Below, in pieces: positions 353 to 64,000 of a DNA stretch of 64,000 nt. Every line of letters starts with the position of its first letter. Position 1 is the stretch's first letter. The position numbers and the translations under genes were made by a program. Source of the stretch: Nannochloropsis salina CCMP1776 (Eukaryota > Sar > Eustigmatophyceae > Eustigmatales > Monodopsidaceae); NCBI GenBank assembly GCA_004565275.1, contig SDOX01000016.1, forward strand, positions 1,009,292-1,073,291. The letters run 5' to 3'. A model generated the notes under the pieces. It was not told the DNA's origin. It saw nothing but the letters and a program-made list of their open reading frames with translations, and did not search any database.

Positions 353-396
353 CACGGCCTATCTCACTGTACGCTTTTAGGCGCACTTCAAGGACT

Positions 397-1812
397 ATGA
401 ACTCCATTCTTCGACTATTTATTTGTAGCAGCATTACTATCGTTGCTAAAGGATCAAGCAACCCACAATCCAGCGTACTCGTCAGAGGCCTGCAAGACAA
501 TGAATCTACTACGTCTGACCCTACCATCGAGGTTACATCGAGCCCTACTATCGACCCCACGTCTGACCCTACCATCGAGGTGGTTACATCCAGCCCTACT
601 ATCGATCCCACGTCTGACCCATCCATCGAGCCTACACCGACCCCTACTATCGACCCCACGTCTGACCCTACCATCGAGCCTACTGACGCCCCCACCAAGA
701 ACCCTACGCCAGCTCCTACAATGGCCCCCACTCCCTCCCCTACTGACGCCCCCACCAAGATCCCTACGCCAGCTCCTACAATGGCCCCCACTCCCTCCCC
801 TACTGACGCCCCCACCAAGATCCCTACGCCAGCTCCTACAATGGCCCCCACTCCCTCCCCTACTGAAGCCCCCACCAAGATTCCTACGTCAGCTCCTACA
901 ATGGCTCCCACTCCCTCCCCTACTAACGCCCCCACCAAGATTCCTACGCCAGCTCCTACAATGGCTCCCACTCCCTCCCCTACTGACGCCCCCACCAAGA
1001 TCCCTACGCCAGCTCCTACGCCGGCCCCCACTCCATCCCCTACTGACGCCCCCACCAAGATCCCTACGCCAGCTCCTACGCCGGCCTCCACTCCCTCCCC
1101 TACTGACGCCCCCACCAAGATCCCTACGCCAGCTCCTACAATGGCTCCCACTCCCTCCCCTACTAACGCCCCCACCCAGATCCCTACCAAGATCCCCACG
1201 GCTGCTCCTACTGAGCGGCCTTCCCCGGCGCCCACTACGCCCGCTCCGGTCACTCCAATCGACCCCTTCAATACCCCGGTCCTGGTTGAAAACTCCACAT
1301 GCATTCGCGTTGTTGATTTCCATACCGATCCTTCTGCCAAGCCCTTCAAAGCGAAAAGGGATCGATGGACCATTACGGGCTTCTTCAACGACTCCGCAGA
1401 AACTGCGGTCGTGAACATTGGCCAGTACGGCATCATTGCAGTGCTCCAGGATGCAGCGAAGAAGGCTCTGAGCTCCACTTTCTTCACACCCCCGCAATGC
1501 AAAGCGTTGAACAATATACGAGGCGTGACTTGCAAGACCACTGGTGCTCGCTTACGGCTCAAGAAGACGAAGGATCCGAGCGTACGCAACAAATCAAGCG
1601 AAGGCGCTTTCTACAAGGTGAAAGGTGTCTTTCGCTGGCTGACCTTCCTGCAACAGCCTGTCCAGACCCCTCTTACCACGATATTTGCAGTTCAGTTTCC
1701 GAATACGACTACTGTCTTTACCACCTCAGCCACCGAGCAATGCACGGAAAAGGGCAAGACAGGAGGCAAGAAGACCAAGATCGACTGCTGCAGGCCGTCT
1801 AAAAAGAAGTAG
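397..1812 (+). CDS. Secreted Thr/Pro/Ala-rich repeat protein
   Basis: The protein is 471 residues when started at 397; the frame is also open from an ATG at 328. The 397 start is chosen because it puts a signal peptide first ([19 protein letters not shown]) and lies downstream of a TATA-like box. Next come [16 protein letters not shown]-type repeats, then about eight 20-residue repeats of the type [20 protein letters not shown], encoded by a 60-bp tandem array. The last ~150 residues are non-repetitive, with a few cysteines, several N-glycosylation sequons and a lysine-rich end; I do not recognise this domain. No membrane segment or GPI-type tail is seen. Thr/Pro-rich stalks of this kind are common in extracellular and wall proteins of stramenopiles, where they are heavily O-glycosylated, so an extracellular role is inferred. 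No enzyme function is claimed. Confidence 0.75.
679..1188 (+). repeat. 60-bp coding minisatellite, ~8.5 units
   Basis: There are about eight and a half tandem copies of a 60-base unit inside the secreted-protein gene. Units differ at few positions (GAC/AAC/GAA for one codon, ATG/ACG alternatives, TCC/TTC). The period is exactly 20 codons, so copy number can change without breaking the frame. Confidence 0.95.
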
Positions 1813-16529: not shown

Positions 16530-19500
16530 GTACGTTTTCAAAACAACTTCATTTGCATCAATCATTTCTTTCTCAGTCGACATCGCGCTTGCCTTGTCTG
16601 TATCGCAAACGCCCTTATCTTCGCCCTGACCCCTTCTGTTTTGCCCTCCTTTCTTTTGCAGTGCCCTTTTTGAGGATGGCCTTCACACCTTTCAAATGGC
16701 GCATCTCGCTCATGTTCTGGTCCAGCATCCTCCGCTCTTCTATCCTTACCGCTCGTCTTTTGTGCCTCCGCTGATCACGTGCGTGCAGAAGCTTTCCCAG
16801 CCCTCCGTAATAACCACCGATGTTCGGCAGCTTGGCGTAGCTCTTTCTGACCTTCTCATCGCCTGGGAAATACATCGACGAGAGCGTGTGGCCGCAGCAG
16901 TGGCAACATCGGGGGCAGGCGTAGCGACAGGAACAACTGTTACGAAGGGAGCCGGTGTGGGAGTGGGTAACAAGCGTCCTGCAAGTAGCGATATGGACGT
17001 CTCATCTCCCGTCGCGGAAGGTGCTGGGGGCGAGAGCAATAAACGTGGCAAAGCAGATAGCGGCTCACCCTTTTCTCCTGCGGTCTCTTCTCCAGCAGCA
17101 GCGCCTGTTCCGCCGTCTTCGACTACATCTGCGGGTTCGTCGTCCTCGGGTGTATCAACGACAACCACGAGTCATGATGACGACAGTGTACCCGTCTTTG
17201 GTCACGTTACGCAGATGGAAGCTGTTCTGAACTTCCTTATCAAGAATGCTATTGCGACGGCGGATTCTCGCGATCCGCAGAGCGCTAGAGTCTCCGCCCG
17301 CTCTTTGCACTACATCGGCTCTGCCTTGTCACTCTGGGCGTGCCCTGAGCTTCGTCTTCCATACCTTGAACGCGTCCTCAGCTCAATGCCGGAGACGATT
17401 CCATCCACCTCAGCCCCCGCCTCATCTGGAGTGGCGCAACAGGGTGGTAAAGAAATCACTCCCCAAATCCTCATCTGCGTGCTTGACATCTTGCTCGCTG
17501 TGCTTGAACACGGTCCTCAACCTGCCCCTTTTGTCTCTCAAAATGTTGGCCGTGTCGCACACTTTTTGGTACCATGCTTTAATGCTTGCTCTGGAGAGTC
17601 CGAGATTCGAAAGCGTCTCACTCGTGTTCTCGCTCTGATCACGAAGTGGTGGCCTCCACATGATCCATCCCCGGAATTTTTAGAGCCGGGAAGCGGTGGA
17701 CTACCGGGAGTCAGCTTTTACGTGCGGATGAAAACGATCATGGAGAAGAAGGTCTATCAAGCGATAGAGACTGACAGTGCAGGAGGCAACAAAACTGGAG
17801 GCCTGGGTCCGCAGCAGCAACAGCAACAGCAACAACAGCAGCAACAGAAGGACACGGGTCGCTGTTCCGCTTTTCCCATCGTGCAGATTCTAGGCACCAT
17901 TGTCAAACAAGCCTCGGCTTCAGCTGTAACCAAGATTTCAAGTGATGGTGGGATAGCCGAGAAAGGGAGCGGTACAGTCGCGCCCTCTGCGGTCCCGAAT
18001 ATCAATCAAGCTGTCCTTGAACCGTACTGTTCTATGTTGCTCAAGCTTGCAACTCATCTCACGCGGCATCACACGGCAAATGCCCTGATGAATGCTCGGC
18101 CGGGGATAGCACAGCTTCAGTTCATGGCAACACCAACAATGGCGATACTCGACGAAGCGCTCTCGACAGCCACATCTACCGCAACAACGGTTTCAACCGC
18201 TAGCAGTAGTGGAAATGCATCGCCTTCTTCCGGTGCTTCTTCGGTAATGAAGCCCCCGGATGAGGCCATTCAAACCCTGATCCGTTGTATTCAGCTCACC
18301 GGACGATGCATAGGTGCCAATCCGATGAAATTGGCGGACCAACGGAAGGCGCTTTTGGCTGTAATGGGTGCTTGCTTGGATAAGTCAGATTCTATACCGC
18401 TTCTTCTTGCTATCTACCATCTTGTCGCAGAATGGACCTTGGGATACTCTCTCCGCACTATTGTAGAACAAGAGGATAATGACGATAGGGCAGCGGATAA
18501 GGAGAAAGTGGAAGATGAAATATATGAGGAAGAGCTTGATGTGAATTTGCGGGCAGTCCTACAGCAAAAGGAGAAAGCTGCGCTTCTGGCGAAAATGAGC
18601 TTGGCCCTGGAGCGGTCGCCAGAGGTGGTCTCTCAGCCCTTGCACGCCCTTCATCATCGGTTTGTCCTTCTGTTTCTCCAACAGCAGCAGCAGCAGGCGC
18701 AGCCTAATGTTGCACCGGCGCCCTTGCGAACTGAGGTCGTTGATTCTGCAGGACTGACAGGAGCTAGTCCATCTGTAGCATTTGCAGCTGCGGCTCCTGC
18801 CGACATGGATGTTGAGACAATAGCTGCCACAAAGACGCAGGGTGCCGTGTCGACCATCTCGCCCTCTCCTGCAACGGATCAAAATGGAGAGGCAGGCGCC
18901 ACCGAAATTTCCAGTACCTCGTTACCAGCCGCACCTGGTGCTCTCCCTGCTGCCACAGTCCATTTCTCTTCAGCTACTCCTTCATCTGTTCCTGTTGCAC
19001 CTGCCAAGCTGCCCGCTGGCCCTGTTCCACAGTGGGTGACGCAGGCAACGGCGCGATCAGTCACCGCTGGGCTAATAACTGTCGATTATAGACTCCGAGA
19101 GCAATACACGAGGATGTTTTATGATTCTCATATTGGAATGCAGGAAGGAGGAGTGAGTACACACCCTGGCGAGAGACTCACTCATCTTCTTTGCAAAGCT
19201 GAATGGGACGTCGTGGGTGGACGCTACTGGATTGTGGTCTTGGTAGATTTGTTGCTCAGAGCATTGTCCCCAAATAGTGCATCTCTGCAGCCTGTGAACC
19301 CCTCCCTGATTTTGGCAAGGCCTTGCCTGGCAGCTGCAGAAGGCGGCACACGGACGTCCTCCGACGTCGTCAGATTTTATCTTGAAACGCAAGGGGAGCT
19401 GAAGACCTCAAAGGAGGGTCTTGGGCCATCTATTATTGCCGCTCTTCGCCTGTTGTTGCATGCGGATCTGACGGTTGTGCGAGGATTGTGGATTCCGTTG

Positions 19501-22500
19501 CTACGCAACGCCTGGAAAGCTTTGAAGCCTGTATCCTCCCCTCCATCGGCGACAAGTACCGACGCACCCTCTATGCCAGTGTCTCCTTCCTCAGATCCTG
19601 GCACGCCAGATGAAAGTTTTAATGCCCTTCAAAATGAACTTGTGCCCGGTATGGTTTCTGTCCTGACTCGTGGCTCTCACAGGCAGGCCCTTGTGCTCCC
19701 GTCCTATCACCTTTCTCCGGTGCAACACCAGATAAATACCGTACAGGGACTCCTTCAAGGTTTTCTTTCCCTAAGACCCATGCCCAACTTGCCACCCGAT
19801 TTGTTGGGTGCCCTTGCAGTGAACTATAACGCGTGGACTACTGTCTTGCCTTTGATAGAACATCAAGTTACCTCTGTAATTGGATCGGCGGAGAAACAGC
19901 CTTGGATACAGGTCTTATCGACTATCTACTACATGATGGGCGAGCACGACCTCCGGGCGGCGATGCGAAAAAGGTTTTGTGCCTTACCTGAAAGCAAGTA
20001 TGCTTTGTCCTTGGAAATGTACGGAAAAGTGCTGGAGGCTCAGCAAGCCTTTTACGAGCTTATTCAGCGGGACGCTCTCGGAGGGCGTGGAGGAGGCGCA
20101 GGTGGAGGTGTTGGAGGGACGACAAGCTTTCGGGGCTTAGCACAGTTTGAGTTAGAGCTTTGGGAGGAAAGGTGGATAGAATGCAGCAAGCAACTTAGTC
20201 AATGGCCGACGCTGGGTGAATTTGCTGCTTCGACAAAGCATCCGGAGCTAGCCCTGGAGTGTGCATGGAAAAGTGCGGATTGGGAAAGTGTTCGATCGCT
20301 TCTACAAAGCAACCAACTGATCCTCCAGCAAGAAACTGGGAGCCCTGCGCATCGTGTGCATGAAGCGCGCCTGGCCGTGGCAGATGGAAGACCTCCTGTA
20401 GACATTGACCGGTCAATCGGACAAGCGTTCCAATTGGCACTAAGCAAATGGCAGCTGCTTCCTCGTGTCTACCAAGGCTGCCCATCGCACAAGCCTTTAC
20501 TTCACGTCATGCATCAACTCCACGAAATCAAGGAATCTGTTACCATTATGGATGATGCGGCAATGAAAAGGACTCCCGGCGTTGTTCGAGATGGAGGGAG
20601 TGGAGGAGGATTAGGAGGACCTTCGCCAGGCGCTGCCTCAGCTACGGCGACACATCTGCACAACTTGGTACGTTTTTGGCGGGATCGACTTCCGAATACA
20701 TGGGATCCACTCAATGAGTGGGATGACGTTCTGTACTGGCGGCTGCAAGTGTTCCAAAAGGTTCAAGAGAGGAGGCTGGCAGCTGCTGGTGGAGACTTGG
20801 CTGCTGCTGCGGCCATGAATTCCTCGGGAGCAGGAATGGGACCTCCTGATCCCTCACGGCTGGCGCCAGAATTTCAAGACACTGCCTGGACGATGGTGAC
20901 CCTCGCCAAAGGTGCGCGGAAACAAGAATTGAATGACGTGGCCCTGAACGTACTCTGCCGCATCCCCATGGCCACCATGGCCGTGTCGGATGCGTACGGC
21001 AAGCTCCGAGAGCAGGTGATGATTTGTTACCACGCTCTGCGTGCGGTGGGGTCTCTGGGCTCCATGGCATCAGATTATCTTTCTGGAATTCTCCCTGCTG
21101 CTGTCTCAAATGCCGGCCTGGGCAGCGTTCCTTTGACGCCGTCCAAGCTGGGACAGGCGGGGTTGAACATTATCAACCACACGAATATCGAATACTTCGG
21201 AGACGAGCAGACGGCGGAACTCTTCCGCCTGAAAGGTCTATTACTGGGTGCGGCAGACCTGCGAGCCGATGCGAATCAAGCTTTTAGCCACGCCGTGCAA
21301 GTGTGTGAAAAGTATGGGAAGGCTTGGTTGGCTTGGGGACGGTATTCAGATGAAATGTTTGAGAAAGAAACGGCGCAACGGCTCTTAGCCTTGAATGCGA
21401 TGGCGTGCTACTTGGAGGCGATCCATCACAATGCATTAGGGGCCCGTTTGCTCTTGTCTCGGGTACTTCAAATGCTTCTGATCGACGAAGAATCCGCAGC
21501 GCTTGTCCTGGATCGACACGGAAGAAGGCTGCCGGACTGGATATGGGTGCCCTGGATTCCTACACTTATCGCCTTCCTCACCCGCCCTGGCGCTCAAGTC
21601 GTGAAGGGTATTCTCAAGCAGGTGACCAACAGCTATCCACAGGCAGTGTACTGCACGATTCGCGCGTATTTTATCGAACGGCGGGACTTGCAAAGCTCTC
21701 TTTTACCGCCCTCCACCACGCAGTCAACGACCTCTGTCACATCTTCTGCACCAGCAGCAAGCACAAGAAGTGGCACAGTTTCTTCCGGTGACGCTGGCGT
21801 GGCAAGCAATACTGAAAAAGCTGTGGTTGCTCCTTCCATCGCCAATGGTGCCGCCACCACCGATGATCAGAAACTTCCACAAAGCTCGACTGCTCTTGCA
21901 GGTCTGCCACCGCAGCTCGCGGCATGTGTAGACTTAGCCACGGGAACCTTGACTCAGCCTGTGATCCTACGCTATTCAAGTCAGCCTGGACCTCTCGCAC
22001 CACCTCAACAGCAGCCTGGAACATCTTTAGTCGGACAAACTGTAAAAGTGGAGGCGGGTCGTCCTGTGGCTGAAGTTCGTGGGGCGTTGGACAAGGGTGC
22101 TATTCTACTCAACTTGCCGCCACCTTCTGTGCCTGGTGCATCTGAATCAGCAGCTGGTGGGGGTGTGAGCGGAGGAGCAACCCCGGCTTCGGTACAGGAG
22201 GTTGGTGCCTTCCAGCATGCGGAGGAAGTAGTTAACCAATTTCGGAAATCCCATCCCAGCTTGGCCCACGACATGGAATTAATGCTGGAAGAGATTATTG
22301 TGCGTTTTCGCCCCAAGCAAGAAGAAGAGCTGCTGGGTACATTACATACATTGCTGCGGCGATGTTTCCAGTCTATTTACATGCACTTGGACGATCCCAT
22401 GCCTCATAGTCTTCGTGAAACTCTTCTGCGAGTTTCCAAGAAATTTTTCCGCTCCTCGGGTCCTAATCCACCTCTAACCAGTCCATCGTCGCCTGTGCTG

Positions 22501-24312
22501 GCTGAAAATAGCGTCAGCGCAAAAAAGGCCGCTTTTGTCAAAACCTTCAAGGACGCATTCGAGAAAGACTTCATGCTTGTTCCTCCATTCGCCCCGGCGC
22601 CGCCAGCAGAAGGTCAGCCCGCATCAGTAGAACCGATGTCGCTGCATCGAGTTATCTTGACGCTTCGAAAATGGAAACAACTCCTGCTTTACTGCATTTT
22701 GAAAGACCAGCATACAGCGGGAGGAACTTCACCTGTGGAGCAGCCTCTCGCCCTTTACCAATGCAGTCCACACCTCGCCACCATGCGCTACGAGATACCA
22801 CCCTTCATTCTCCGAACTTCGGCATTGTCGACTTTAGGCTTGAGTAGCAGCAGCGGAGGTGGAGGTGGAAACTCGGCTGCTGAAGCGGCCATGAAAATGG
22901 GCCTGTCAGGAAGCCCTGCAGCAACGACGACACCGGTGGAGATTCCTGGACAATATGCGACCTGTCCCGGGCAACCATTCCCAGACATGCATGCAAAGCT
23001 CTTGGGATTTGATCCCAAGGTGGAGGTATTTTATCGGAATCACGCATTCCATCGTCGACTCTGTTTGTTAGGCAGTGACGGACGGAAATACTACTTCGTG
23101 GCGCAAGGTGCTACTCCTTACACGACTCGTTCTGATGAACGCATGATGCAATTGTATTGGCTGCTGAATCGGCTGCTCGAAAAATCCAACATGGCTCAGC
23201 GCCGGTCTATCGCTGTGAGTATCCCTGTAGTAGTACCTATCACTCCACGGCTGCGTCTGATGGAAGATCATCGTTTATTTACCTCTTTGGGAGAGGTTTA
23301 TGAGGCGGAACGTCATGCCAAAGGCCTAGACCCAGATGGTCCGGTGATGCTACGACGAGAGAGAGGCTCCGTCGCTATTTCATTGGCCAAGCAGGAGGTG
23401 GATGCCGAAGTTGCTGCAGAGCAAGCTCGACATACGATAGCTGTTCAAGTGGCGATAAATGCAGGGCAGCCCGCTCCACCGCCTCCGGTGGCTCAGTCGT
23501 CAGCTTATCAGGCCAAGATTGAGAAATACTTGCGCCGGGAACGCTTGGCCGTGTTCCAAGAAGTGACGCGTCCTGGAGGACTCGTTTCGAAGCAGATTCT
23601 TACGCAATTTGTGCATTCCACACTTGGCGGCGAACCTGAAGCTATCTGGTCCTGGAAGCATACCTTTGCCCAACAACTGGCCGTGTCGAGTCTGCTTTGC
23701 TTTGCTTTGAGTTGTGGAGAGCGCACACCGGGCCGCCTTATTTTCCATAAACTCAACGCTACAATCCAGTCAGCTGATTTGCGGCCCGGATATGGCATTC
23801 GAGGCTATCTAGAGAGCAATGAAGAAGTTCCTTTCCGCCTGTCTCCAAATCTGATGGCTGTCTTCTCCCCGTTTCTCGTCGATGGTGTCTTTGTCCCGAC
23901 GATGGCGGCGGTCGCCCAGGCTATGACACAGAAGCGAGAGTTAATTCAACCCTTTTTACATCTAATGCTGAAGGACGATATTTTAGCGTGGAATATGTCA
24001 AAAGCGACGATGCCTCGCGAGGCCGTATTAGATCAAAAGAAAATGGAGAGTGTTCTTGTCGACCGTGTCAATCGTAATGTGCTAAAAGTCTTGGAGCGCC
24101 TTGTCGTTTGTGCCCCAGCTTTACCGTCCGAGAAGCACCCGTTTGTCTCCCCATTGCAGCATGGGGCTGGTACTGGTGGAATGAGCTCCGGCATGGCGAC
24201 AATCGGTGCCGGAGGGGAAATGATAGACGCAAGGGCGACACTACTCGTGGAACGGGCGGCAAAGCACGAATATGTGGCGCAGATGGCCCCTACATGGCAT
24301 CCGTGGCTCTAA
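3563..24312 (+). CDS. TRRAP: TRRAP/Tra1 PIKK-family pseudokinase scaffold
   Basis: Predicted ~5120 residues from about 45 exons, against ~3860 in human TRRAP and ~3740 in yeast Tra1. TRRAP recruits SAGA and NuA4-type histone acetyltransferase complexes to activators in the nucleus. The N-terminal half is a long series of helical HEAT-like repeats. Then come an Asn/Ser/Ala-rich insert with a Gln run, a FAT region, a PI3K-like domain from about residue 4690 (LLGSDGRKYYFVAQG, DERMMQLYWLLNRLL, VVPITPRLRLMEDH) and a FATC end (TWHPWL). The PI3K-like core lacks catalytic residues: the DRHxxN position reads ERTPGR and no DFG is present, as expected for TRRAP rather than an active kinase. A typical TRRAP block, VPFRLSPNLMAVFSP, precedes FATC. 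The start at 3563 gives a Pro/Ser-rich leader. Introns crowd the 5' part; everything after 16662 is one exon. Confidence 0.93.
17810..17848 (+). repeat. CAG/CAA polyglutamine tract in TRRAP
   Basis: A run of 12-13 glutamine codons, mixed CAG and CAA, sits in the low-complexity insert of TRRAP near residue 2950. A shorter Gln run follows near 18680. Mixed codons suggest an old, fairly stable tract rather than a pure expanding triplet repeat. Confidence 0.9.
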
Positions 24313-43993: not shown

Positions 43994-46900
43994 TCACAAC
44001 CATGGGCTCCACCCCACAAAGATACGGCACAAGTTATCCGGATCCGTTGCTTGCGAAATAAGGTACTTGACGTGACCCTCGGTACTCATTGCATCCCCTC
44101 CCGGGTCTTCGTATCCCTTGAGTTTCTGCCGAATGCGCAGCAAGGCTCGCTCTGCGTCGCTGTTGGGCCGCATCGTCTCGCATGCTTTCCGCTCTTCAAA
44201 GCCCAGCACCTTGTGGGCCGCGCCGCGACGACGGCGTCCACTTCCTTCCTCCTCCTCCTCCTCCTCCTCGTCTCCCCCCCTTACACAGTTCGCTTTGCCC
44301 GATACCGCCGAGACGCCCGCACGTGCCTCCTCACCACCTTCCTTGGCCAATACGCCAGGCATACCCGCACGTATCCAGCTATGTAGAGGGTCGTGGACAC
44401 AGACTTCCAATATAGTCAGTAACGACGGGGCATGCTGGCGCAGCACTGCCATTGTCGTGTTGCAGCATTGGCGGAAGACACCTTCGGTGCCCGTCACCCC
44501 CATGGCGTCCACCAAGTCACGCGTTAAGCGAAAGGGCACCGTCTCTGGTTGTGGTAGGACCTTGCCTTGCTCAAAGGTGTAGCCGAAGTCAATGTGCACG
44601 AGACCTGCCGTGGCCTGATCCACGAGGATGTTGCTGGCGTGTCTGTCCCCGATCCCCAACACGTAGCCGACGATCGAGCTCACCGCCACAGAGCGGGTGT
44701 AATACAAGCGCTTTCTGTACCAGACCGCCGGGTCTGGGAAGCTTTCGAGGAAGAAAAAACGGAAGGCAGGATGAAAATTCTCAGTGATGGTCTGATAGGC
44801 GTCTCGCCGCTCCTCACTTGTCCGAGCTGTTCGCAGGAGCTCCCGGCACTCCCGAGAGCTGAAGTCATTGTCCCCATTGTAGCGCTCATGCAGACCCAAA
44901 GAATTGTCTGATGATGCGACCAGCAGCCCGCCCAGCGTTTTGGTGTCCTCCACAAACTCGAGCGCGCCGCACTCAGGCGTCATGGGCACTACCCGGTAGG
45001 TGCGGATATGCAGGGCGCGGCGCCGGGCCCGAGGGTCCCTATAAAGGAGAGTGTTCATCATTTCAAAGACCTGCATCATGATAGCGTCCGAGCGCACGTC
45101 ATCCGCTTTCAAAACCTGCCTGTACCGCCGGCCGTCAGTGCCCAGACAAGCAATTATCAAAGGTCGGCTTAGTCCGGATTCGGCGAGAGCAAAGCGGGAT
45201 TCAAAGCGCTCCACACGCACCACATGCGTTGAACACCCCCATGCCTGATCCTCAGCGTCATACCTCGCCATCGGGTCCAACGGCGGTGATTTGGTCAAGA
45301 CGGCAGGTAAGGCGGCCAAGGTGACGCCGCTGCTCGAAGCCCCGCTTCCAGGACCTTCGGCGCCACGTCGCAGAATGTCCGGAAAATTTCGGAGAACGGC
45401 CGGCTCGGCGGTAAGGGACACAAAAGACAGGTTCCGGGACTGCTTCATCTCCGGCGTGCGCTTGATCGACGCCAATTTGATGTACCCGTCAAGAAGTTTT
45501 TCTGTGTTGGTGACGAGAGCTGCCAAGACGGGGCAACCACTAGACAGCAAGCGATTCAAGATTCCTTGGGCTGCTTGGACCTTCTCTTCCAGGTGCGCCA
45601 TACGATTGTAGGTTTCTCGGGCTGCAGCCGAATTGAGCGTCTTCCCGTGCCGAAGAGCGAAAAGCTGGAGCAGGGTATGGTGGGGGTGTTCTTTGCAAGT
45701 TCGGAAAACTAGCAATTCCACAGCGCTGCTGAATTCACGAGTACCCGAGCCCAATCGCGATAAAATCTGATATATCAATGGTACAACCTTGTAAGTGGGA
45801 ATCTCTAAAACCAGCTTGGCAAGCTCTGCATTCACGACAAGGCTTCCCGCATTGACTGGATCGAACCAAAGCGCTACCACCTTGAAGATGGGTCCCAAGT
45901 CATCATCATCTCCACATCCCGAGCCATCTTCCTCTTCGTGCTCTTTTGCCTCCGAGTCGCTCGCTAGGACAGGACGACCTTCGCAACTGTTCCTTGTAGT
46001 TTCCCGCCGGTGCCTACCTCCCACCAAACCGTCAAAGCACAGTGCTTGTCTGAAATGCTTCAACGCATCAAGAAGGATTCCAGATAAAGAGTCAACCTGT
46101 GCCTTATAATCGGCTTCGTCCAGCGCTAACTCTTTCTTTAAGCTTCCAATTCGCCGTCTGAGTTCATTGCGTTTCGGATCTTTTTCGCTAACCCCTTCGA
46201 ATTCCCGTTGCCTGACTTCAAGCTCCACTTTACGCTGCTGCAGTAGCTCTGCCTGTCGTACCATTTCGTCAGATTTCAGACGTTCAGAGCGACGTTGATA
46301 CAAGTCAGTGAGAAAATTAGCTAGTGTCAAATGAGCCTGTCGACGCTGCGCGGGCGTGCCTCCATCTGCACTAGCTCGATCTACGGCGGGCCGTAAATGT
46401 CCGTCGATAATACGTTGCGTGCTTTCGGATCGGGCTATCGCCATCCACCGCCCCGCTAGTTGTCGAGCCTGAACCTCCAATCCGCGTACCCTGGCATCAT
46501 CTGAACATTTTTCAGAGACGTCTCGGTCCAAAGTCTCCAAGGCAGGTGCCAGAGCTGTCACAGTTTGGATGGCAAGGTCTCCTTTCCCGTTTGCCCAGAG
46601 GATACGGGCTTGTTCAAGCTTGCAGACGCAGCGGTCCACTGTCAATACTCCATTCGGGCGAGCACCAGGGGCAAGTAGAAGGCTCTCCACTCTGTCCATC
46701 ACACTCGCCGCGATGGTCAAATTTCCTGCCGCACGCGCAGCTGCGGCTATACCTTGTGCATGACGCACAAGCGCTTGACGACAATCTAAGGGCGGACAAA
46801 GCGCTCGAATCAGCACTTCTTGTACGGCCAGCACCGGTTCGGCAAGCTCGAAGTCATCCTCAATTGCACCGTGCGACCGTGCCTGCCATATATCTATCAA

Positions 46901-49900
46901 CGCGCGCCCTTTATCTCTGCTATAAATGCCAGAATAGGAGGATGTGGCATTTTTATCGTAAGCCATAGCATTGTGATCTTCTTGCCCCGATAGCTGCTGC
47001 AGACTGACGGCGTGCAGATCTCTCGCATGATAACTTTTAGCCATTCTGCCGGTAAAAACTGCTCGCAGGGCTGCCACCTCTTCCATCTCCTGTAGCGACT
47101 GTAAACGGGCTAAGACAGGCGACAGGAAGCGACTAGGTTCTGAGGCTACCTCCTCAGCCAAGCAACTAAGCAATCCTAGACGCGCTGCCCGCAGGTTTTG
47201 TGAGAGAACTGCATTGTCTCCGGCCGCTAAGGCTCGCAGCCCCGCATGAATATGCTCATGATAGCGGTGTCGTCCTAGAAGACTCAGAGACGGCCCACCC
47301 GCTAGGTCTTCCGCAGCACTGCCCTCTTGATGCCAAGCTTTGATTGATTGATCGTCATCAAGGCTCAGAGGCAGGGCTGTATTCCCAAAATTGTGTGCTG
47401 TAGTAGCCAGTAAGGATGGTTGATACCGAGCCACACATACATTTGGACCCCAAAGGGCTGATGAGTAGGACCGATTATAATTCGCGATAGGGAATTGTTG
47501 CCATCGACAGGCCCGCCATGAGGTTTCAAATTCCAACTCCCGCAAAGCTGCTTCATGACCGATGTCCGTACGCGTCTTCAGCCCAGCCAAATATGTATCC
47601 AGAACATGGCCTAAATCCAGTTTCTGCAGAGCAATCGCCGATCCCGCAGAGATTCCAGTATCTTTGCTAGCATTCGGCGGATAATACGAACAGGAAGTGG
47701 AGCTATGGGACGCTCTGCTAGCATTTTGTCCTTGCCAACGCTGAAGAAGGCAGTCATGCTCTGCCAAAGCTTGGCGCCAATCAGGGCTTTCCTGAGCAGC
47801 TACCGCTCGCATCCTCCCTTCAAGGCCAGTACCTGCTTGTACACCATCTGCTCCATCAGGCTCCGCGAGACGACCCGATATACGAAGGAGAAGGGATTCG
47901 ACTTCCCCGACCTCACCCAATAATAGAGTGGATTTGTCCTGCTTTCCATAACCTTTTTTGCCTCTGCTAATGCTGATATCTCTGCTTGTACGGTCCATGG
48001 AGCGACTGTAGTCTTGTGTTCTGTCCGTCCCATCGTGTGCTCCTTCATGAATTCCTGAGTAACGGGCCTGAAGCTGATCGTGCTGTCGTTCGTCCTCCAC
48101 GTGAAGCTCCAAATAAAGTGTCGCTGCAGTCAGCGCACCACATCGAATCGCCGCTCGCGCTATTTCCAGCTTGTTCAACCCCAAGCCCATCATGCCCCCC
48201 ACAGCTGCAACAGCCTCGTGTGCTTCGAGATGAGGAGGAGAAGGACTGGTGCGTTCAGTGCTTTTGCGCCGAACCGATCTGCCGACAACGGGAGAAGAAG
48301 GAAAGCGTACCTGCAAAGCTTCATGGATGCTTTGCATACGAAGGAAAGTCAGCGCGCTAATTAAGGCTTGCGATGGACGGGGGTTTGCTCGGGAAAGGCA
48401 CAATCGAAGGCATCGCGTCAGCTGCTGACAGACCCATTCGCGTGTCATTTTTTTCTCGTCCTCTCCTTGCTGCTGCTGATCTACCCTCTCGCGCCTATTG
48501 AATGACTGTCTTGCCTGCACTGCTGTCAATGAGCAATCTCTTTCCAGTCGCAAGAGACAGAATAATGCAACGGGCAACAATACCTCTGCCAGCACCGGCT
48601 GACTTCGACAGGTTCCACTACACTGGATCAAAAATCGGCGCACTATAGTCAACTCACTCTCGTCCTGTTCGCAATTGTCGAGGTGATTCTCGATTTTACG
48701 CCCGGACGCTCGAACCATAACTTCCTGTGCGAGCGTCCAAACTAGCTGTGTGATCCAGTCCTCGTACGGTAGCCGACGAGGGTCCCAAATCCGTTGACTG
48801 CACCACTTGTTGTTAGCACGCGGAAAATTTGCATCAACTGGACGCATAGCATTGGGAAAGAGAGTTTGAAGCCGTTTTTTGCTTGACGACACCAAATACG
48901 ACGCTGCGAATGGTTCTCTTTGCCCTACATCGCACCGGTACGATGCCTCCGTGTCGCGAATGCGACGCTTGGTGGAAGACCGTTCGAACGACTGCAACAA
49001 TGCCACCTCTTGCTCGTCAAAGACCGCGTCGTGCTGTCGTGACTTCCAAACCGTTTTCATCCAAGGCCGTATCTCAAAATTTTGTACAGTTCGACCAGAG
49101 TCTGCATTTAAGTCGCTGTTTTCCTTCTGGTTTTTTGTCTCGTCGTACTTATACCGAAGCAATGTGCTTCGAAGGGTTAGGACAGCAAGTTGTACAGCAT
49201 GAGCGTCCGAGCTTGTCAAAAGTCCCAACAAAACCTTTAGTGCCTTGCCCACAATAGATTCGCATGGTGTTGCGGGCAGAAGAAGTGGAGGAGGTGCAGG
49301 TAACGAAGCACCCAGGGAGCGACGGGAGGAGCCAGCGCCGAATGATCTCTTCTTCCCATTGCTTGTGCTTGTACTTTTGTTACCATGGATTTGGTCAATA
49401 TGAGTTGCAGGTACCCATAGAACCAATTCGCTGGGTGGGACTGCACCGAGAGCTCCCAAGACACGGGCAGCCTCTAGTCGAATGGATATTTCCTCCTTGC
49501 CACTGCCACCGGACCTGTGCAAGGCTCCTGATAAATCTGACATTCCACCAAGGGACCTTTTCTCCCATTCCCGAGGTCGACACAAGCTTAGCAATGCAGG
49601 TACTAAGAGGCGGCGGACCTCTGGTCCAGGATCCAAAGGAGTCACTTGAGATGGGGAAAGATCATCTGCGGAAGTTTGGATAGGACTTAAGCGGTGCAGC
49701 AACGCTTGGAGGGCTACCAAGCGGGTAAATTGTCCCGCACGACCCTGTCCGGCACTTCGCGCCAATGTGACGGTAAAGCGCTTCGCATGAGCAATAAGCT
49801 GTCGACGTGCTTCTCCTTGGTCTATTCTGCCGCATTTTACTGTGGCACTTGTTGTAGCCCGCAATATAGCTACGCGGACTTCCTCCAGTGTCTGCTCCAA

Positions 49901-52900
49901 AGCATCCGACTCCCGAAACCAGCTGCCAATGGTAAGCCTAGGCAGAGGATCGAGGTCACAAATATAACGCTTCAGACTGCTTTCTTGTATAACCAAGCGA
50001 TGCAGGATAGAAACTACTTTTGCTGCGATAGCTCCCGCCTCATCTTCGGTGAGGACGAATGACGAAGAAGCCCGCTCGTTGATGGAGGGGGTAAAGAAGT
50101 GCAATGGCAACATCAACAATGAGCTCTCCGATATCATATCATCATCATGCAGGTCCGTCACCCCCACGCTCGGACGTCGATGTGTGTAGACCCGTAATTG
50201 AACCAATATTGTAAAAAGCGAAACGACCAGGCCGCCTAAATGCACGCGCAAACGTTCTGCCCCGACTGGGTGGCCATCTACACTCCTATGATCCAAAACA
50301 GCATCTAGGTAGCTCTCTAGCATATCTAGCACTGAGAGTGTGAGGGCACATGCGTGACGTTCCAGAGCCCACAGCATCAGGTGAATGCACACGTGCAGCG
50401 CAGCTGGAGACTGAGCTACTGGTCCGAGGATCATTAGTAATTCCTTGGTCACCTCCAGAAGGCGTTGAGCGCGAACAGGATTTGATGCTTGCGCGAGACG
50501 AACCTTAAGGTGGAACAAAAGCTCCACTGGATTGCAATTTGACCACAGCACCGTCAAGTTTACTACGTCACTATCCTCCTTTTCCCGCTCACTATTGCTA
50601 ATTGTGCGAACTACCCGTGATGCCCCCAAGATACGCTCGGCCAAGGCCTGAAGTGCTGGACCCAAGGCACTAGGCTCAAGAGAGCACAGGGCGCTCTTAC
50701 TTGTCGCGCCAGAGGGCAGTGAAGCAAGAGGTGCTTCTGTGCTCAGCAAATCCAACATGCTTACTATCACATCCTGCGGAAAACGTTCAGGGTCGAGTCC
50801 TGCTCTACTATTAAGTTCTTCTTCCCCTGCTTTGGGAAAGGACCTTTGAAGAAAGCCGTGTAAATCAGCGAGCTGAAGTCCAGCGTTCTCATGGACGGTG
50901 GATGCGCTCAAAAGCAGAAATTCAAGGGCTTTGATTTCCACTATATACGCACTTATGAGGCTCGCAATGCGGCCTTCCCGGAACATCGTCGGATCTTCGC
51001 GCTCATCCCCCCTTGAAGCATGAGGCGTCGCTTTCTTCTTCTGATTCCGATGCAGGGAACCTACGGCCAGTGCCAGATTGTCAAAGAGGTCCAAACGGTA
51101 CGTCGGAGGATCACCCCCGGAGGCTAGGCACGCTATGGGTACCAGGATGGAAAGCGTGTTTCCGACGAAAGCTTGAAGGAGAGCTTCTTGCTCTTTTGTG
51201 ACATCGCCATATTGCATATTAAATCTACTGCATCTACTAGCACCAGTGATATTTAAACATACAGGGACTCCCGCTGAACCCACGTCCTCTTCCCCCTCCT
51301 CAGTCTTGGAGGCTCTTCTTCCATGTTCTCTCCACTCGTCTTCTATTTCCCCCCAACAAAATTCTCCACTCTCTGGGTCGAGAAGTAGCATGTGTAGAGG
51401 AAAATCTAATAATGGTAAACGATGGACAACGAGCCATTCGTGCAGTAAGAAAATAAGGTGTTCCCGCAATAATGCCGCCACCGACGGGTACCCGAGTCCA
51501 CCAGCGATTGAGGAAATCACTGCTTCCACCATGGGTCTCACCATTTTCGCTGCTTGCAGCTCCGCAATTTTGCTGTGTGTTCCAGTCATTGCTCCGGTTG
51601 GTGAACCCCACCATCGACAGAGAGTAAGAATGGCCAAACGAGTCACCTTGTGGGAAGCTCGCGCTGCTGTGCCGAAGGCAATCAAGAGTCCCAAGCGGCG
51701 TTGCAAGACATATAGAGTAGAGAGAGTCGACTGCGACAATGTAACGTGGGACCGAGAAACAGTACTCGCCCTATCGTTCGCATCTGGGCCCTCTCCCGGC
51801 CCCGAAAGTACGCCTTGTCGACGGTACTGCTCCCAAACACTCAGGCTATTGGGGTAGACGAGAAAGACTGCAGGCAAGGCGCGGGACGTGGACAGACGGA
51901 CCTCACTGTCTCCATGCCGGGCACTGTGTACCAAGCAGGTCAAGAAAAGTTTTCGTGTCCCGTCATCGCCTCGCACAGCATTTGACGCTTCAAAAAGTGC
52001 ATGTCTGGCATCCGTTTCCATGCATCGGTTGTACCAGCTCAATTCTTCCCTTTCAACTAATGTGAAAGAGGACCACAGGCGGTCTTGTACAGAACCTAGC
52101 CCTTCCACTAACCAGCTTGGACTCTTTCGACTACAAAGCTGCTGAAGAAGTCGCCAGAGGCAGTTCAATCGGATTTCTTGCCCTGTACTTACCTCACGTC
52201 GAGCGGTGCTCTCCAAAGACAGAGCAACAGCGCTTAGGTCATGATTGACCCATCCTTGAAGCTCCGCCAGATGTTGAACATAATCCTCTGGATCTGCCAT
52301 GAGGAATAAGGTGTCAAACCATAATTTGGCTAAATCCAAATCCCGGTCGTCAAGCAAGATTGAGCTTGCGGCTTTGATATACCGATATGCGCACGGGTTG
52401 GTCGGGTTCAGAACGAGAGCTAGGCGGGCCCAAGCGGCTAATTGGCGCGCCGAGAAAGGGCTGTTCTTTGAAATTTCCCAGGCAAACGCACAATTCTCTC
52501 GACGCAGTTGCCTTCCTTCAACATGGCCCATCCTTACTCTGATACCCTTGCCGCGATGCTGTGTCAACGGTCGTCGCTGTGAAGCCAGCGCTACATAGGA
52601 GAGCTCCGTTGCCTCGTCCTCGTCATCGGAATCAGCCATCAGGTCATCCTCATCTCTGTAGGTTGAATTTAAATGGCGATTTTTAAACGATGAAGATGTT
52701 TCTCCATCGCTCAAATACCCTCCTTCCTCGTCTACTTCCCCACGTGAAATATCAGTTGCATCGTAGCTGTTTCCATGTATTACCTCTCCCGACCCTTCAG
52801 GAAGTATTAGGCTCAACGCCTCATCAATACGACTCCGGAAAAAACGCAACACGTCGTGTGCTCCTCTGGGCAGCTTTTCCTCTCTAGACAACCCTCCACC

Positions 52901-55900
52901 CAGGCCCTCGGTACTTTCTACCCACAAGCCAGTCTTCTCTAAGCCCCCCCCACCATCGATCGCGAAAGTAAGAGGCAATTCCTCAAGAAGAGAGCTAGAC
53001 ACGTCCAGTACCAAGGCTCCTGCCTCTGCCACTGCCCCTGGAACCGCCTTCTCTCCAAACCCTTCAGCTTCTTCCCTAAGTCCTCGCTGACTGCGTGACA
53101 GCCCCTCGCATTTTCCCATGCCAGGCCACGATAGGCAATGTAAGCAATCTTGCATTCTTCCCAGTAATTCTTCAACTCTTGTAGCCATAAGAACTACGCG
53201 TGAAAAGTCAGATGGCTGTTCATCCTCAACAGCGTCCAAAGAATCGTTTTCGTCCTTTAGCTCACCTGCTTCAACCGTTGCCTCATCCACTCTCACGGCC
53301 AAGAGAAGAAAGAGCATTTCTATCAATAAATAGCAGGGAATATGCACACCGTCAATATTTGAAGCGATCGAAGTATTTCTGACTTGAGCCTGGGTGTTCG
53401 TGGAAGCCATACATTCACGACTGAATGATCCCTTTTGCGCGCTGCTTCCAAACAGTAAGGAGCGTAGTGCTTCTGTCCAGGCCTCCACATGTCGTACAGC
53501 ACGCACTGCAACTCTATTTATTTGGACTGCCATCGCATCACCGAGAATATCGTTTTCCTCAAATCTCCGCCCGTGGCAACGGCGTAGCAAAGGGTGTCCG
53601 CCTGCAGAACAGAGCTTGGCTGTCTTAGTAGAGGTACTAGGCACCGTAATACCCCGTAAATCAGGACTGAAGCCTCGAGTGGGAGTTGTGGAAAACCCTG
53701 TAGCGGCTGCTTTTGTTGAGGCCATACCAGACGTGGAGAAAGTCGCTCCCGTTTGAAACGTTGTCCCTGCGTCATCGATACTCCTTGTCAGGTCTCGCCA
53801 TAGATTGCGCTCTCCGTGGATGCAAAAGAAATGTCGAATAGTCCCACTCTCATCGAGACTACTCCCACCTTTGGCTTCAGTGTGACTTCCTAACGACAGA
53901 GCCTTGCGCCGCCTCCCTTCTTCTTCCGCGAGCGCCCGCCAGGGACTCGAGAGAGACCACCTCAGTTTTCCGACGGCAAATGACGACTCCACCGTCCAGG
54001 GTAACGCACCATTTTCTGCTTGCGTACCGTCCTCATCAGTCACCATGCGCAGTCGGTAGCGAGAAGCCCCAATTAAGTCCACCAATGCTGCCATAGCCCG
54101 AGCAATAGCTCGACACCGATCTATGATCGAAGCATGCGATCGGAAGAGCTGAAGGCTAATAAATCCCATTAAAAAATCGCCCACGCGCTCCGCACGGCTT
54201 CGAGCCTGAGGTAGCATCATCTGCCTTTTTCTGAGCAGGTTCTCATTTTCTTCACTGCTCTCTCCATTTCCACGTATCCCACCATTTGAAAGGTGGGCGT
54301 GGTCCAAAAAACCACAAGGCACACTCGTACTGACTACACCCGTGGACCCCAAAAAAACTGAGGCTATACTGTCATGGCCGTCCGATATCTCCCCCCGCTG
54401 TAGCAAAGCATGCAACAAAGTTATGGCACTCAAAGAGTCCTGCACGCTTTGAAAGGCCGGCAATCTCCACAGTAGGTCTTGATTTCTCGCTAGTGTAGCC
54501 TCGCTTAGGAGAATAGGGTGGCTTACCAGTTTGATTAGCAGTCGGAGAACGCCGTCACCCAGTCCTACCCGTTGAGAATCTAGACGGCCTGTAGCTGACC
54601 AGCATTTTAGATCAGGACGGAGGATGGTGTGTAGGACTCGACCCCACGCAGCACCGAGCTGGGCCAACGGAAATACCGGCATCGGGCGGCGAGTGCAGAC
54701 GTGGGCCAGTGCGAGCAATGCCACCAAGGTCCACAGGAGAAGCACACTTTCCCGTCGTGATACCAACAGGTTCTCCAGTACGTCTACAAGCTCCACTAAG
54801 CCCTCTCCTTCGACAGTCTCGCAAAGCACCCAGAGCTCTCCGCCCGAAGGCAAGTTCTCCAAGACGGCGGCCAAAAGTTGCAAGTGAGCCAGAATGACAC
54901 TCACCCTTGCGCCCCCAGAGCCAACCCCCCCGCCTACTTGATTTTGAGTGCCCTTGACGGTAGGCTGTGAGCCTGGATTTTGAGTAGCTAGGCTCGCACC
55001 GGCCTGTCCGTGTGACCTCACTTGGTCGCCATCCGATAAACCCGCCCGACAACCTGCCTGCACACGTCTCCCAAGCCTGGCACTATCCTCCCTGCTGCCC
55101 ACGTTCTCCTTCGAAGCCATGCGCAAGACGTGGTAGATGCGGCCCATGGGGTCCTCCTTGACCGGATCCGAGCCCGATCCGGCCTCCCGAGCTATCGAGC
55201 TAACCCCGGCTTCCCCCCTGCTGCTCGCCAGCCGCTGCCGTTTCCGCACCTGCCCCGGTCCACGCATTCTTCCACCACCTTGATCATCCTCATCCAAACA
55301 TTCCTCTCCCCGCACGACCCCTGTCTCACCACCTCCGCGTGCCTTCTCTCCACTCCCCCCGGCCACACTTGTTCCGGGGGGCTCCTGCCCGTCCACGCAC
55401 GTCACTCTCAAAGCCCGCATCGCGAACAAAACCTCCGCTGCCAGGACCAGACTCAAACGCCCTCGGTACTCCAACGGCACCCAGGTTTCCTCTCTACCCT
55501 TCTTCCCGCCAGCACCGTGCGCCCGCACGTGCTGGCCGGCATTGACCAGACAGTCCTGCACAACCACCTCCCATACCTTGTCGAGATTGTGCACCATGTA
55601 ATCGCCAGCATCCAGCAGCCACGGGTGTGCAAAAGCGAGCCGAGCGCGGGCTAGATGGAGTTGGAGGCGGACGTGTTCGAAGAAGGTGGGAACCTTGGAG
55701 ACCCGCAGATTGGGCAAGCACTGCAGTGCCAGGCTCAGGACCGCCTCGCCGTAGCTCATATCTTGGTCGTGGCCGCCCATGGCCAAGTGGGGGGCGCAAT
55801 CTACGCCGTACTTGAGGAGCAAGGCATTTATGGTGGCCAGCACTTCCTCTGCCACGTCCGGGAAGGCGTTGACTCCGGCTTTGCGGGCCTCGGCGATCCC

Positions 55901-56560
55901 GTGCCGCCCCGCCCACCTGCCCGCGAAGCGCACTACGCCCCGCAAAAATGATTCCCTTCCGCCCGATCTGTCGCCCTCGAGGACAAAGTCTCGGCGATAG
56001 TTGGCTATCAGATTCGCGAGTGACCGCGCGCGGGAGATGGAGGTCTGGTCCAACCCATTTCTCTCATCGTCCTCCTCCAAAGAGCGCATCAATCTTTGCA
56101 TGCATCGCTCTGCTAGGCCCCGACTCATGCCCTCGCAATATTTGGCCTCTTTCAGCAATATTTCTAGTAGTTGTAAGGCACTCCCAACTGTAGCCTCCTG
56201 GTCCATTCGCAGCAGGGCATCCGTGACAAGAGCCTCGACAAGAGAAACTAGGGGCCATGCCCCTTCCCGGAGTGGGGCCCGTCGGACAACCGACACCAGG
56301 AAGAGCCCAACGTCCTCTTGTTGCGCACGCTTTTGTTTGTTGCTCCGTCCTTCATGCTTGACATACATAAGAGCTGACCACACTACCTCCTCCCATCGCC
56401 CTTTTTTCGTTAAGGCAGCGGCGCGTTTGGAGTCCGATACAGTCTCTGTAATAAAGCGGATTGCCTCTTTCTTATCCGTTATACGAGATCCCGACTGGGA
56501 TAGCGTGCACAGCGCCACGCTTAATGATGAGATGGCCATGGCTTTACGATTACTCTTCAT
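43994..56560 (-). CDS. ATM: ATM/Tel1 DNA-damage checkpoint kinase, intronless
   Basis: A single uninterrupted frame of 4188 residues; human ATM has 3056 and yeast Tel1 ~2790. ATM/Tel1 is a Ser/Thr kinase activated by double-strand breaks through the MRN complex, and it also maintains telomeres. At the N-terminus, [18 protein letters not shown] resembles the TAN motif found in ATM/Tel1 proteins. A very long helical solenoid follows, then FAT, kinase and FATC domains. Kinase landmarks are [48 protein letters not shown] (Asp ~3972, Asn ~3977) and DFG (Asp ~3991), so it should be active. [21 protein letters not shown] and the FATC end LKGYED...[17 protein letters not shown] separate it from ATR, mTOR and DNA-PK. 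A poly-Glu plus poly-Arg insert lies between kinase and FATC. ATG 56560 is the first; the Met at residue 8 is an alternative. Confidence 0.96.
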   Translation of the reverse strand: [4188 protein letters not shown]

Positions 56561-59935: not shown

Positions 59936-61250
59936 CTTAGAATAAGAGAAGTTGTTTAGCATAAGGGATCGTGACGGATGCCGTCTTTCCCTCTTCCGCT
60001 TGTGCCACCATCTCAAACCTGTCTTGGCATGACCTGGAGATCAAAGGTAGCTTCTGAAAGGGGGATAGGGAGGGTAAGGGAGAGGCTAAAGAGCGAAAAA
60101 CTACCGTCGACGACAATAAGTACGGTAGGGAGGGAAGGAGGCGGGAATGGACGATGGGAGGGACGGAAGGAGGGAGGGAGTGAGGGAAGGACGGAGACAG
60201 AGCAATCACATTCAGGTGAGATCTCAAGACGTTTGTCGATGGTGACGTCTAATCTGCATGTGGACACCCATTTCCTCGATGCTCTTTTCCTCCCTCCTTC
60301 CCTCTCTTTTGTCCTCCTTGCCACCCTCCTGTCCCCCCTTCCTAAGTTTCTTCTTTTCACCCTTATTATGTTCTTCCTACCTCTTCGTAGGCCTCCTCTC
60401 GATCCTCTCCTCCGTTTGCGGGCTCTTCTCTCTTTTTTTTTGACGGGAAGGTAAAAGAATAGGTCTCCGTGGGGGATACTACGGCTAGTCTTTCCTCCCG
60501 CCCTCCCCTCCTTTCCTTCCCCTCGCCCTCCCCTCTCTTCCCTCCTACATCTCTCACTCACCCTCCCTCCTCCCTCCCTCTTCCCCTCCCTATCTATCTC
60601 CTTCGCTCCTTCCTTCCCTCAGCAAGTAGCCCTGATCGTTTGCCCGAAGCTAGGGAAAATGAAATTGGGGGGGAGGGAAAGGAGGAATGGAGGGAGATCG
60701 AGAGGGCCTCAAAAATAAGAGAGGGATGCATAAGAAAAGGAACCGAGACGTTTATATGGAGTTACACGCTCGATCTGGCTCCCAGAGTGCCTGCTTCCTT
60801 CCCTTCCTTTCTCTCCTCCCTCCCTCCCTCACTTACTCTAACAGCGATGTCCTTTTTTCACATACCTGACGACAGCCGTCTACAAGAGCTCTAAATCGTC
60901 CTTTACGGACCGCCTGATTGTACGTTTCCCTCTCTCTTTGTTTCTTCGCTTTGCCTTTCTCTCTTTCCCTTTCACACCCTCCATCTTTCCGATCCTCCCT
61001 TCCTCCTCCTCTTTTCCTGAATCCTCGTCTGACCGTACGACACCTATTCAATCGTCGCACTGTTATTAAGTTCACCTCTCCTCTTGTTCACCCCCTCATT
61101 GTCTCCTTCGCCCCCTTTCATTCTCAACGCCCCATATAGGAATCCGGTGGGAGGTGTATGTCACTCCTCCTCTCATGCCTTGAATCTCCCTCCATTAAAT
61201 TCAGCAACTGGCCTTTTCATCCTAGCTTCAACGCCATGTAAGCCCTACTC
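59936..61250. other. Subtelomeric stretch, low complexity, possible exon relics
   Basis: Long CCCTCC/GGAGGG runs occur at ~60120-60190, ~60490-60620 and ~60800-60835. Between them are short minus-strand pieces that look like exons with good splice sites. One is 60913-60866 (RKGRFRALVDGCRQ, donor CAG|GTATGT), one around 60270-60215 (WVSTCRLDVTIDKRLE), and one ends near 59951 (EGKTASVTIPYAKQLLLF then stop). I cannot join them into a gene and recognise no family with confidence. It could be a decayed multi-exon gene or a divergent subtelomeric one. Confidence 0.3.
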
Positions 61251-61287
61251 TGTTAGGGTTAGGGTTAGGGTTAGGGGTAGGGTTAGG
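61251..61287 (+). repeat. Interstitial TTAGGG tract
   Basis: GTTAGGGTTAGGGTTAGGG with a GGGTAGGGTTAGG variant: six to seven units in the same orientation as the terminal telomere, about 2.5 kb inside it. Confidence 0.95.
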
Positions 61288-62719: not shown

Positions 62720-63350
62720 TCGAGAAGGGAGAATATTCATTGGACCACATTCTCTCGCGTGTTGGCCCGAGAGATAAGAATAGACTTGCACTACGAGAAG
62801 CGAGCAGGAGACTGCTACTACAAACCGTTCCAACGGCTGGTGGATCTTTTCCTTCGCACACATACCTCCGTGTCAAACCCGAGCGAGAATCTATAGCCAC
62901 CTCCTCGTAGGTCAGATATGATTCTAAGTATATATCGAAAGGTTCGAGAAGGGAGAATATTCATTGGACCACATTCTCTCGCGTGTTGGCCCGAGAGATA
63001 AGAAAATTCTTACACTACGAGAAGCGAGCAGGAGACTGCTACTACAAACCGTTCCAACGGCTGGTGGATCTTTTCCTTCGCACACATACCTCCGTGTCAA
63101 ACCCGAGCGAGAATCTATAGCCACCTCCTTGTAGGTCAGATATTATTCTAAGTATATACCGAAAGGTTCGAGAAGAGAGAATATTCATTGGACCACATTC
63201 TCTCGCGTGTTGGCCCGAGAGATAAGAATATACTTCGAGAAGAGAGAATATTCATTGGACCTCATTCTCTCGCGTGTTCGCCCGAGAGATAAGAATATTG
63301 TTGCACGAGGACAAGCGAGCAGGAGCCTGCTACTACGTATCCAACGGCTG
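62720..63350. repeat. Subtelomeric 224-bp tandem repeat, two full and two partial units
   Basis: Units begin with TCGAGAAG at 62720, 62944, 63168 and 63235. The first two are full (224 bases each) and nearly identical. The third is cut to 67 bases. The fourth keeps the first ~65 bases, then a diverged version of the next part (AAGCGAGCAGGAG...CTGCTACTACG), and ends next to a short GATTAGGGTTAGG. Each unit carries CTCTCGCGTGTTGGCCCGAG. No protein is claimed; the minus-strand open frame in each full unit lacks an ATG. Confidence 0.93.
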
Positions 63351-63720
63351 ATAGATTAGGGTTAGGATGGGAGTTTCCCTTGTGGGAAAATGTTTCTGTA
63401 CTGCTGATGCATTAGTTTCTCACTTGCTTGCCCCATTGTCTGTTGAGGTCTGCTTACGAGGTCGTAGTAACAGCAGCTTGGTTTTGTGGCAGGTGAAAAA
63501 AATCTTGGCCTGAGTCCTGTGGACGTAAACGGAACCAAGGGATACAGACATTCTTGCCATAGTTTAATCATGTATCAGATCTACAAAGTCTTAATGAGAC
63601 ATTGCAAATACCTTTCCCGTTTAATTTATGTATAATGGAGTGATCGTCTTACACTTTCTTACAGGTCGACCTGCCAATCCGTACGCGCCCATATTCAAGC
63701 ACAAATCTACACATCCAACA
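63351..63720. other. Telomere-proximal unique sequence with promoter-like end
   Basis: A short telomere-like GATTAGGGTTAGG (about 63354-63366) is followed by ~350 bases of unique sequence. A TATAATGG at ~63631 lies 90 bases before the ATG of the telomere-capped ORF, and the last 40 bases are A/C-rich like a 5' UTR. Confidence 0.4.
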
Positions 63721-63804
63721 ATGAAAGATTTCTCTTGCAATTTCCTCGTCGCTCTCCTGGGCTTTGGAAGTATTGTCACTACCATCTCTCAAGAGTGTCC
63801 GCGG
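63721..63804 (+). pseudogene. Truncated secretory gene capped by telomere
   Basis: An ATG at 63721 opens 28 codons: MKDFSCNFLVALLGFGSIVT, then TISQECPR. This is a textbook signal peptide (short N-region, hydrophobic core, likely cleavage before Glu-Cys). After CCG CGG the frame continues directly into the telomere, reading Leu-Gly repeats to the window end with no stop. The start context (CCAACAATG), the upstream TATA-like element and the abrupt change at 63805 suggest the 5' end of a real gene whose remainder was lost, with telomere added at the break. With only 28 codons the family cannot be named. Confidence 0.55.
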
Positions 63805-64000
63805 TTAGGGTTAGGGTTAGGGTTAGGGTTAGGGTTAGGGTTAGGGTTAGGGTTAGGGTTAGGGTTAGGGTTAGGGTTAGGGTTAGGGTTAGGGTTAGGG
63901 TTAGGGTTAGGGTTAGGGTTAGGGTTAGGGTTAGGGTTAGGGTTAGGGTTAGGGTTAGGGTTAGGGTTAGGGTTAGGGTTAGGGTTAGGGTTAGGGTTAG
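63803..64000 (+). repeat. Terminal telomere, (TTAGGG)33
   Basis: 198 bases of perfect period-6 repeat to the last base, read GGTTAG/TTAGGG on the plus strand with no variant unit. The G-rich strand runs 5'->3' to the end, so this is the right end of a chromosome. The six-base motif matches the vertebrate/stramenopile/fungal type and not the plant TTTAGGG type. Confidence 0.99.

Follow-up and report, generated by a model that had tools for sequence, protein, structure and literature searches.

A telomere array joined to the 5′ fragment of a subtelomeric secreted-protein gene in Nannochloropsis salina, with similar junctions at other chromosome ends

De novo telomere addition, in which a terminal loss is capped by new telomere repeats, is a known outcome of terminal deletions in yeast and human chromosomes. 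Those events have been studied experimentally or clinically, whereas the algal events described here are read from one assembly. In Plasmodium falciparum, the published account (PMC5550746) gives 5 of 28 reference chromosome ends as healed, four of them within truncated var genes, and describes nine healing junctions that are able to anneal to the telomerase RNA template. Chromosome healing itself is already known, the var genes being one example. The algal locus resembles var healing in that telomere repeats are fused into the coding sequence of members of a subtelomeric multigene family. It differs in its TTAGGG repeat, in its algal host, and in the enrichment of CTG among the bases that precede the arrays of this alga. 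No Pfam match links the algal family to var in the four copies scanned. A further comparison is with the subtelomeric promoters that produce TERRA: a promoter facing the chromosome tip would yield UUAGGG-containing RNA, as is predicted for the gene remnant described below. Unlike TERRA promoters, the 5′ region of this remnant belongs to a protein gene family, and its RNA output is a prediction only.

The TTAGGG repeat is given for Microchloropsis gaditana B-31 and for the other eustigmatophytes studied in PMC8570151. Among the matches listed in a literature search on Nannochloropsis and Microchloropsis telomeres and subtelomeres, in which subscription papers are thinly covered, no title on healing was found; the search likewise found no paper on telomerase RNA in the photosynthetic stramenopile group.

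The stretch of DNA analyzed here (the window, 64,000 bases) forms the terminal 64 kb of contig C37 of N. salina CCMP1776, the final base of which is 1,073,291, in a genome of 26.5 Mb and 103 contigs. Its outer part carries the following features:

61250–61287, + strand: interstitial telomere-like tract, which starts CTG-TTAGGG like many terminal junctions
62720–63298, no strand assigned: subtelomeric tandem repeat with a 224-base unit, accompanied by one of 67 bases, immediately ahead of the gene unit
63356–63366, + strand: short interstitial TTAGGGTTAGG, marking the upstream limit of the region common to the copies
63359–63720, + strand: conserved 5′ region, candidate promoter and 5′ UTR of a subtelomeric gene family, defined by a 12-copy alignment and at least 20 other places in the genome
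63581–63606, + strand: strongly conserved block CTACAAAGTCTTAATGAGACATTGCA, the first 11 bases of which occur in 12 of 12 copies
63650–63664, + strand: splice-acceptor-like TACACTTTCTTACAG, with TTTCTTACAG in 8 of 12 copies and the overlapping CAGGTCGACC in all 12
63721–63804, + strand: 28 remaining codons, which encode the signal-peptide-like N-terminus of the family protein (MKDFSCNFLVALLGFGSIVTTISQECPR), with the ATG at 63721–63723
63802–63804, + strand: CGG, the last native bases and presumed telomere-addition point, placed by the empty-site alignment (CGG here in 16 of 19 copies)
63805–64000, + strand: telomere, a perfect TTAGGG array of 196 bases that reaches the contig end in outward orientation, interpreted as added de novo

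Other genes were noted alongside these features. Two very large genes of the PI3K-like kinase family lie at 16696–24312 (+) and 43994–56560 (−); one has Tra1 ring, FAT, and kinase domains (TRRAP/Tra1-like), and the other, of 4188 amino acids, has kinase and FATC domains. A further protein with Pro-Thr repeats (Pfam PT, E 1.1e-14) and 60-base tandem repeats is encoded at the inner end of the window (328–1812, +). A U6 gene was located in the genome. A light-harvesting protein (L136) is close to VCPI-2 of Nannochloropsis (PDB 8zo9 chain 2), with 5 differences over 169 positions; of two other light-harvesting queries, one matched other algal antenna proteins more weakly and one had no match at E 1e-40.

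A sequence-only reading of this end had described an ATG, 28 codons, an immediate switch to perfect TTAGGG, and a frame that stays open without a stop, all of which is borne out from 63721 and 63805 to 64000. The native 3′ end before the array reads …CCGCGG, just after codon 28. The array starts at once with perfect repeats and directly follows the gene fragment, with no other subtelomeric sequence in between. The ATG frame continues through the array to the contig end as Leu-Gly, with no stop ahead in the window. TTAGGG is free of stops when read as TTA-GGG or AGG-GTT and contains one only as TAG-GGT, such that chance alone leaves the frame open in two of three phases; the Leu-Gly frame therefore carries little meaning and was rejected as a signal. 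Evidence beyond such chance comes from homology for the gene part, which matches its best other copy at E 1.7e-168, and from position at the contig end for the telomere. The strong secretion signal that the 28 codons had been said to encode stands as a hydrophobic run that is visible by eye and conserved in the copies.

A search of the alga's own genome with positions 63300–63810 (511 bases around the junction) returned at least 21 places, including the window. At least 20 other places thus match the 5′ region of the window, with E values from 1.7e-168 to 1.9e-9; the best is only 90% identical, so that this nearest copy approximates the parent sequence of the end but is not that exact sequence. 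Nineteen of the 20 other places were extracted and oriented as loci, which end about 1.5 kb past codon 28 or sooner. The frame is open for at least 300 codons from the ATG in 13 of the 19 (L002–L005, L007–L012, L014, L015, and L017), which provides the paralogue continuing past the cut that had been named as a check on the healing proposal. In the other six (L006, L013, L016, and L018–L020), the frame stops within 250 codons, and in view of these broken copies the parent gene of the window remnant may have been a pseudogene before it was cut. Some copy frames end at a possible intron start, and others shift into another frame within repeats.

Family open frames of up to 898 amino acids were found in a search of the whole genome. 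The longer copies open like a signal peptide and contain a conserved domain of about 190 residues, a stretch rich in cysteine, and Pro-Thr repeats; their further parts vary. Pfam scans of four family copies detected collagen repeats in L017 (E 2.7e-27), placed SBBP (beta-propeller repeats) slightly under the cut-off in L003 and L009, and gave no convincing match for the N-terminal part. L017 lies at the left end of C37, the opposite end of the window's contig; the frame of this family copy is open, its Gly-Ala-Thr repeats are collagen-like, and it too faces its end.

At the position of the cut, the copies provide an empty-site comparison. The junction triplet is CGG in 16 of the 19, CAG in L003, and GGG in L010 and L012, and all 19 continue after it with sequence other than TTAGGG, most often CTTTCTC. 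Terminal deletion at the window end is supported because the copies are uncut at this same place and continue without TTAGGG. The window end very probably holds a member of the subtelomeric secreted-protein family that lost its terminal part and was capped when a telomere was added de novo. Chromosome healing within a secreted-protein gene, leaving a capped 5′ fragment, is what the sequence-only reading had proposed, and the proposal gains support from the continuing copies, the clean switch, and the state of other chromosome ends. The right end of this chromosome would once have borne a longer gene of a modular, end-facing family of subtelomeric secreted proteins, and would then have broken or eroded into that gene. 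Telomerase, in the role assigned to it here, would have added TTAGGG directly onto the 3′ end …CCGCGG after codon 28; the distal part of the gene would have been lost, with the capped 5′ fragment and its promoter region left behind.

The region ahead of the cut was aligned from −420 to +84 in 12 copies, the window among them, and CAGGTCGACC and CTACAAAGTCT are present in all 12. Because of these conserved motifs and the alignment across 12 copies, what survives at the 5′ side of the window copy is, on sequence grounds, the genuine start of a gene rather than a chance ORF. The promoter and 5′ UTR that had been proposed upstream of the ATG are likewise plausible, given the conservation of this sequence across the 12 aligned copies. 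The splice-acceptor-like site at 63650–63664 would, if it acts as its sequence suggests, give a 56-nt leader ahead of the ATG. Going by its title in the reference list of PMC8570151, there is a patent on Nannochloropsis spliced leader sequences, and in light of that title the same site could be a trans-splice site. In the 12-copy alignment, the conserved 5′ region of the window is oriented toward the TTAGGG array, and the candidate promoter of the 5′ remnant may now transcribe into the telomere.

Copies of the family are concentrated at chromosome ends and, with few exceptions near those ends, face outward. A query with the N-terminal domain (190 amino acids) gave 59 matches that merged to 51 loci, 32 of which are no more than 8 kb from a contig end. 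Thirty-one of these 32 read toward the end (p 1.5e-8 if the loci are independent, with two loci at each of three contig ends). Twenty-three of the near-end loci sit at 20 telomere-bearing ends, and all 23 read toward the telomere; the other nine, including the sole exception to the orientation (C9), lie at contig ends that lack a terminal array. Toward-end orientation was also found in six of eight loci at 8–20 kb and in 4 of 11 farther in. Because the family loci face the ends, terminal loss removes the tail of the gene and spares its promoter. A promoter pointing at a telomere is therefore the expected product of terminal loss in this family.

The window end is not a lone accident, as similar scars are found at many ends of this genome. 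Six patterns for perfect TTAGGG arrays of at least four units gave 69 start places, including interstitial tracts and multiple starts per telomere, and these were reduced to 39 representative ends. Without C64r, whose array is followed by other sequence, 38 contig ends carry telomere arrays. The sequence before the array varies from end to end, with the exception of C74r and C79r, which share a subtelomere. One shared subtelomeric unit is cut at different points by C33r, C31l, C46r, C49r, and C17l, and also by C64r, and homologues that continue elsewhere were found for C100r, C2l, and C62r. C100r is a second family copy cut by a telomere, which runs in frame into Leu-Gly and has a stop and a frame change upstream, and the telomere of C62r lies about 1.9 kb past the ATG of another family copy. 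At the right ends of C34 (L108), C55 (L109), and C65 (L111), runs of the variant CTAGGG precede perfect TTAGGG; these are perhaps older ends.

Comparison with uncut homologues bears on the origin of the last bases before the array. At the window end (C37r), C2l, and C100r, the pre-array triplet (CGG, CGG, and CCG, respectively) is also present in the uncut homologue. At C46r, C49r, and C62r, a gapless reading leaves bases (G, TG, and CTG, respectively) that the homologue lacks, which would fit addition by telomerase. The case for added bases at these three ends was weakened by the printed alignments, which put gaps there between homologues that are about 74–95% alike; at C49r, one alternative alignment pairs the junction with a native CTCTC-TTAGGG in the homologue.

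The junctions share a base signature. At 25 clean ends, a set chosen by eye with the junctions already known, TTAGGG follows the triplet CTG in 11, CGG in four, GGG in three, AGG in two, and TGG, TTG, TCG, ATG, and CCG in one each. CTG or CGG is found at 15 of the 25; random cuts in the same flanks with a random repeat phase are expected to give about 1.5% CTG and 5% CGG. None of 20,000 random-cut simulations produced 11 CTG or 15 CTG plus CGG, and these counts were still not reached when microhomology of one or two bases (20,000 simulations each) or of three bases (3,000 simulations) was required. Thirteen ends with degenerate first repeats were left out of the clean set. Inspected by eye, C60r, C34r, C70l, and C72l from this group also start after CTG, the CTG start of C69r follows an earlier short tract, and the remaining eight do not start after CTG. 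The signature is not limited to ends, as CTG is also found at three of seven internal array starts in one pattern search. The window's own CGG was rejected as signature evidence when taken by itself, since this junction is not of the dominant CTG type and CGG arises in about 5% of cases by chance.

The CTG signature suggests a telomerase RNA template ending in CCCUAACAG. In the simplest reading, the template would continue as 5′-CCCUAACAG-3′, or something like it; broken 3′ ends would pair with it partly, the template would then be copied, and telomerase would prefer, or start with, C(T/G)G before TTAGGG. The 12-mer TAACCCTAACAG occurs 37 times in the genome (reversed control, 0), with 15 sites at telomere-bearing ends and 22 internal. 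For 20 of the internal sites, 81 bases of sequence were read; nine of them lie in longer telomere-like tracts and 11 are isolated, and none of these 20 was identifiable as the telomerase RNA gene. Interstitial tracts that start with CTG, similar to that at 61250–61287, were observed inside contigs C40 and C86; all three could be telomerase-made insertions at old breaks.

A broader and rather doubtful extension, made slightly less likely by the weakened case for added bases at C46r, C49r, and C62r, is that healing gave rise to most chromosome ends of this alga. Telomerase would each time have copied an extended template (predicted 5′-CUAACCCUAACAG-3′), for which reason the first bases would often be (C)TG before TTAGGG. 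Since the family faces the chromosome tips, healing would also repeatedly turn its promoters into drivers of telomeric RNA.

An array could also be acquired by telomere capture, in which the broken end is repaired via microhomology, with another telomere or an interstitial TTAGGG tract as donor for recombination or break-induced copying, without a new start by telomerase. Potential donors exist among the interstitial TTAGGG tracts, some of which start with CTG and could yield a CTG junction, and many ends share subtelomeric sequences. Capture is nevertheless unlikely at the window end, where the array is perfect from the first base with no foreign subtelomeric sequence ahead of it; across the genome, the flanks before CTG differ by end, and one captured segment would have to begin exactly at CTG every time. 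An assembly artefact, in which telomeric reads were joined onto a contig ending inside the gene, is very improbable. The assembly is a draft with N gaps beyond several telomere arrays, and some family copies (C90, C4, and C71) end near contig ends without a telomere, but the window array lies at the very contig end in outward orientation, and random joins would not be expected to leave a strong base signature common to the 25 clean ends among 38 with arrays. A functional gene with the telomere as its coding tail, encoding a secreted Leu-Gly repeat peptide, would accord with the open frame and the 28 intact codons but has next to no probability, given that an open frame is expected in two of three phases, that the window holds no stop codon ahead, and that the other in-frame telomere copy (C100r) is already broken upstream.

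With terminal deletion of a family gene and capping by de novo telomere addition as the preferred account, the surprise lies in the many similar ends, the CTG/CGG signature, and the end-facing family, all of which go beyond what the sequence-only reading could see. One assembly yields a catalogue of probable healing scars in a photosynthetic stramenopile, and the signature gives a concrete prediction for the telomerase RNA template. The end-facing family at eroding ends constitutes an architecture whose promoters survive loss by healing, and transcription of the telomere by such remnants becomes directly testable in a Nannochloropsis-type alga.
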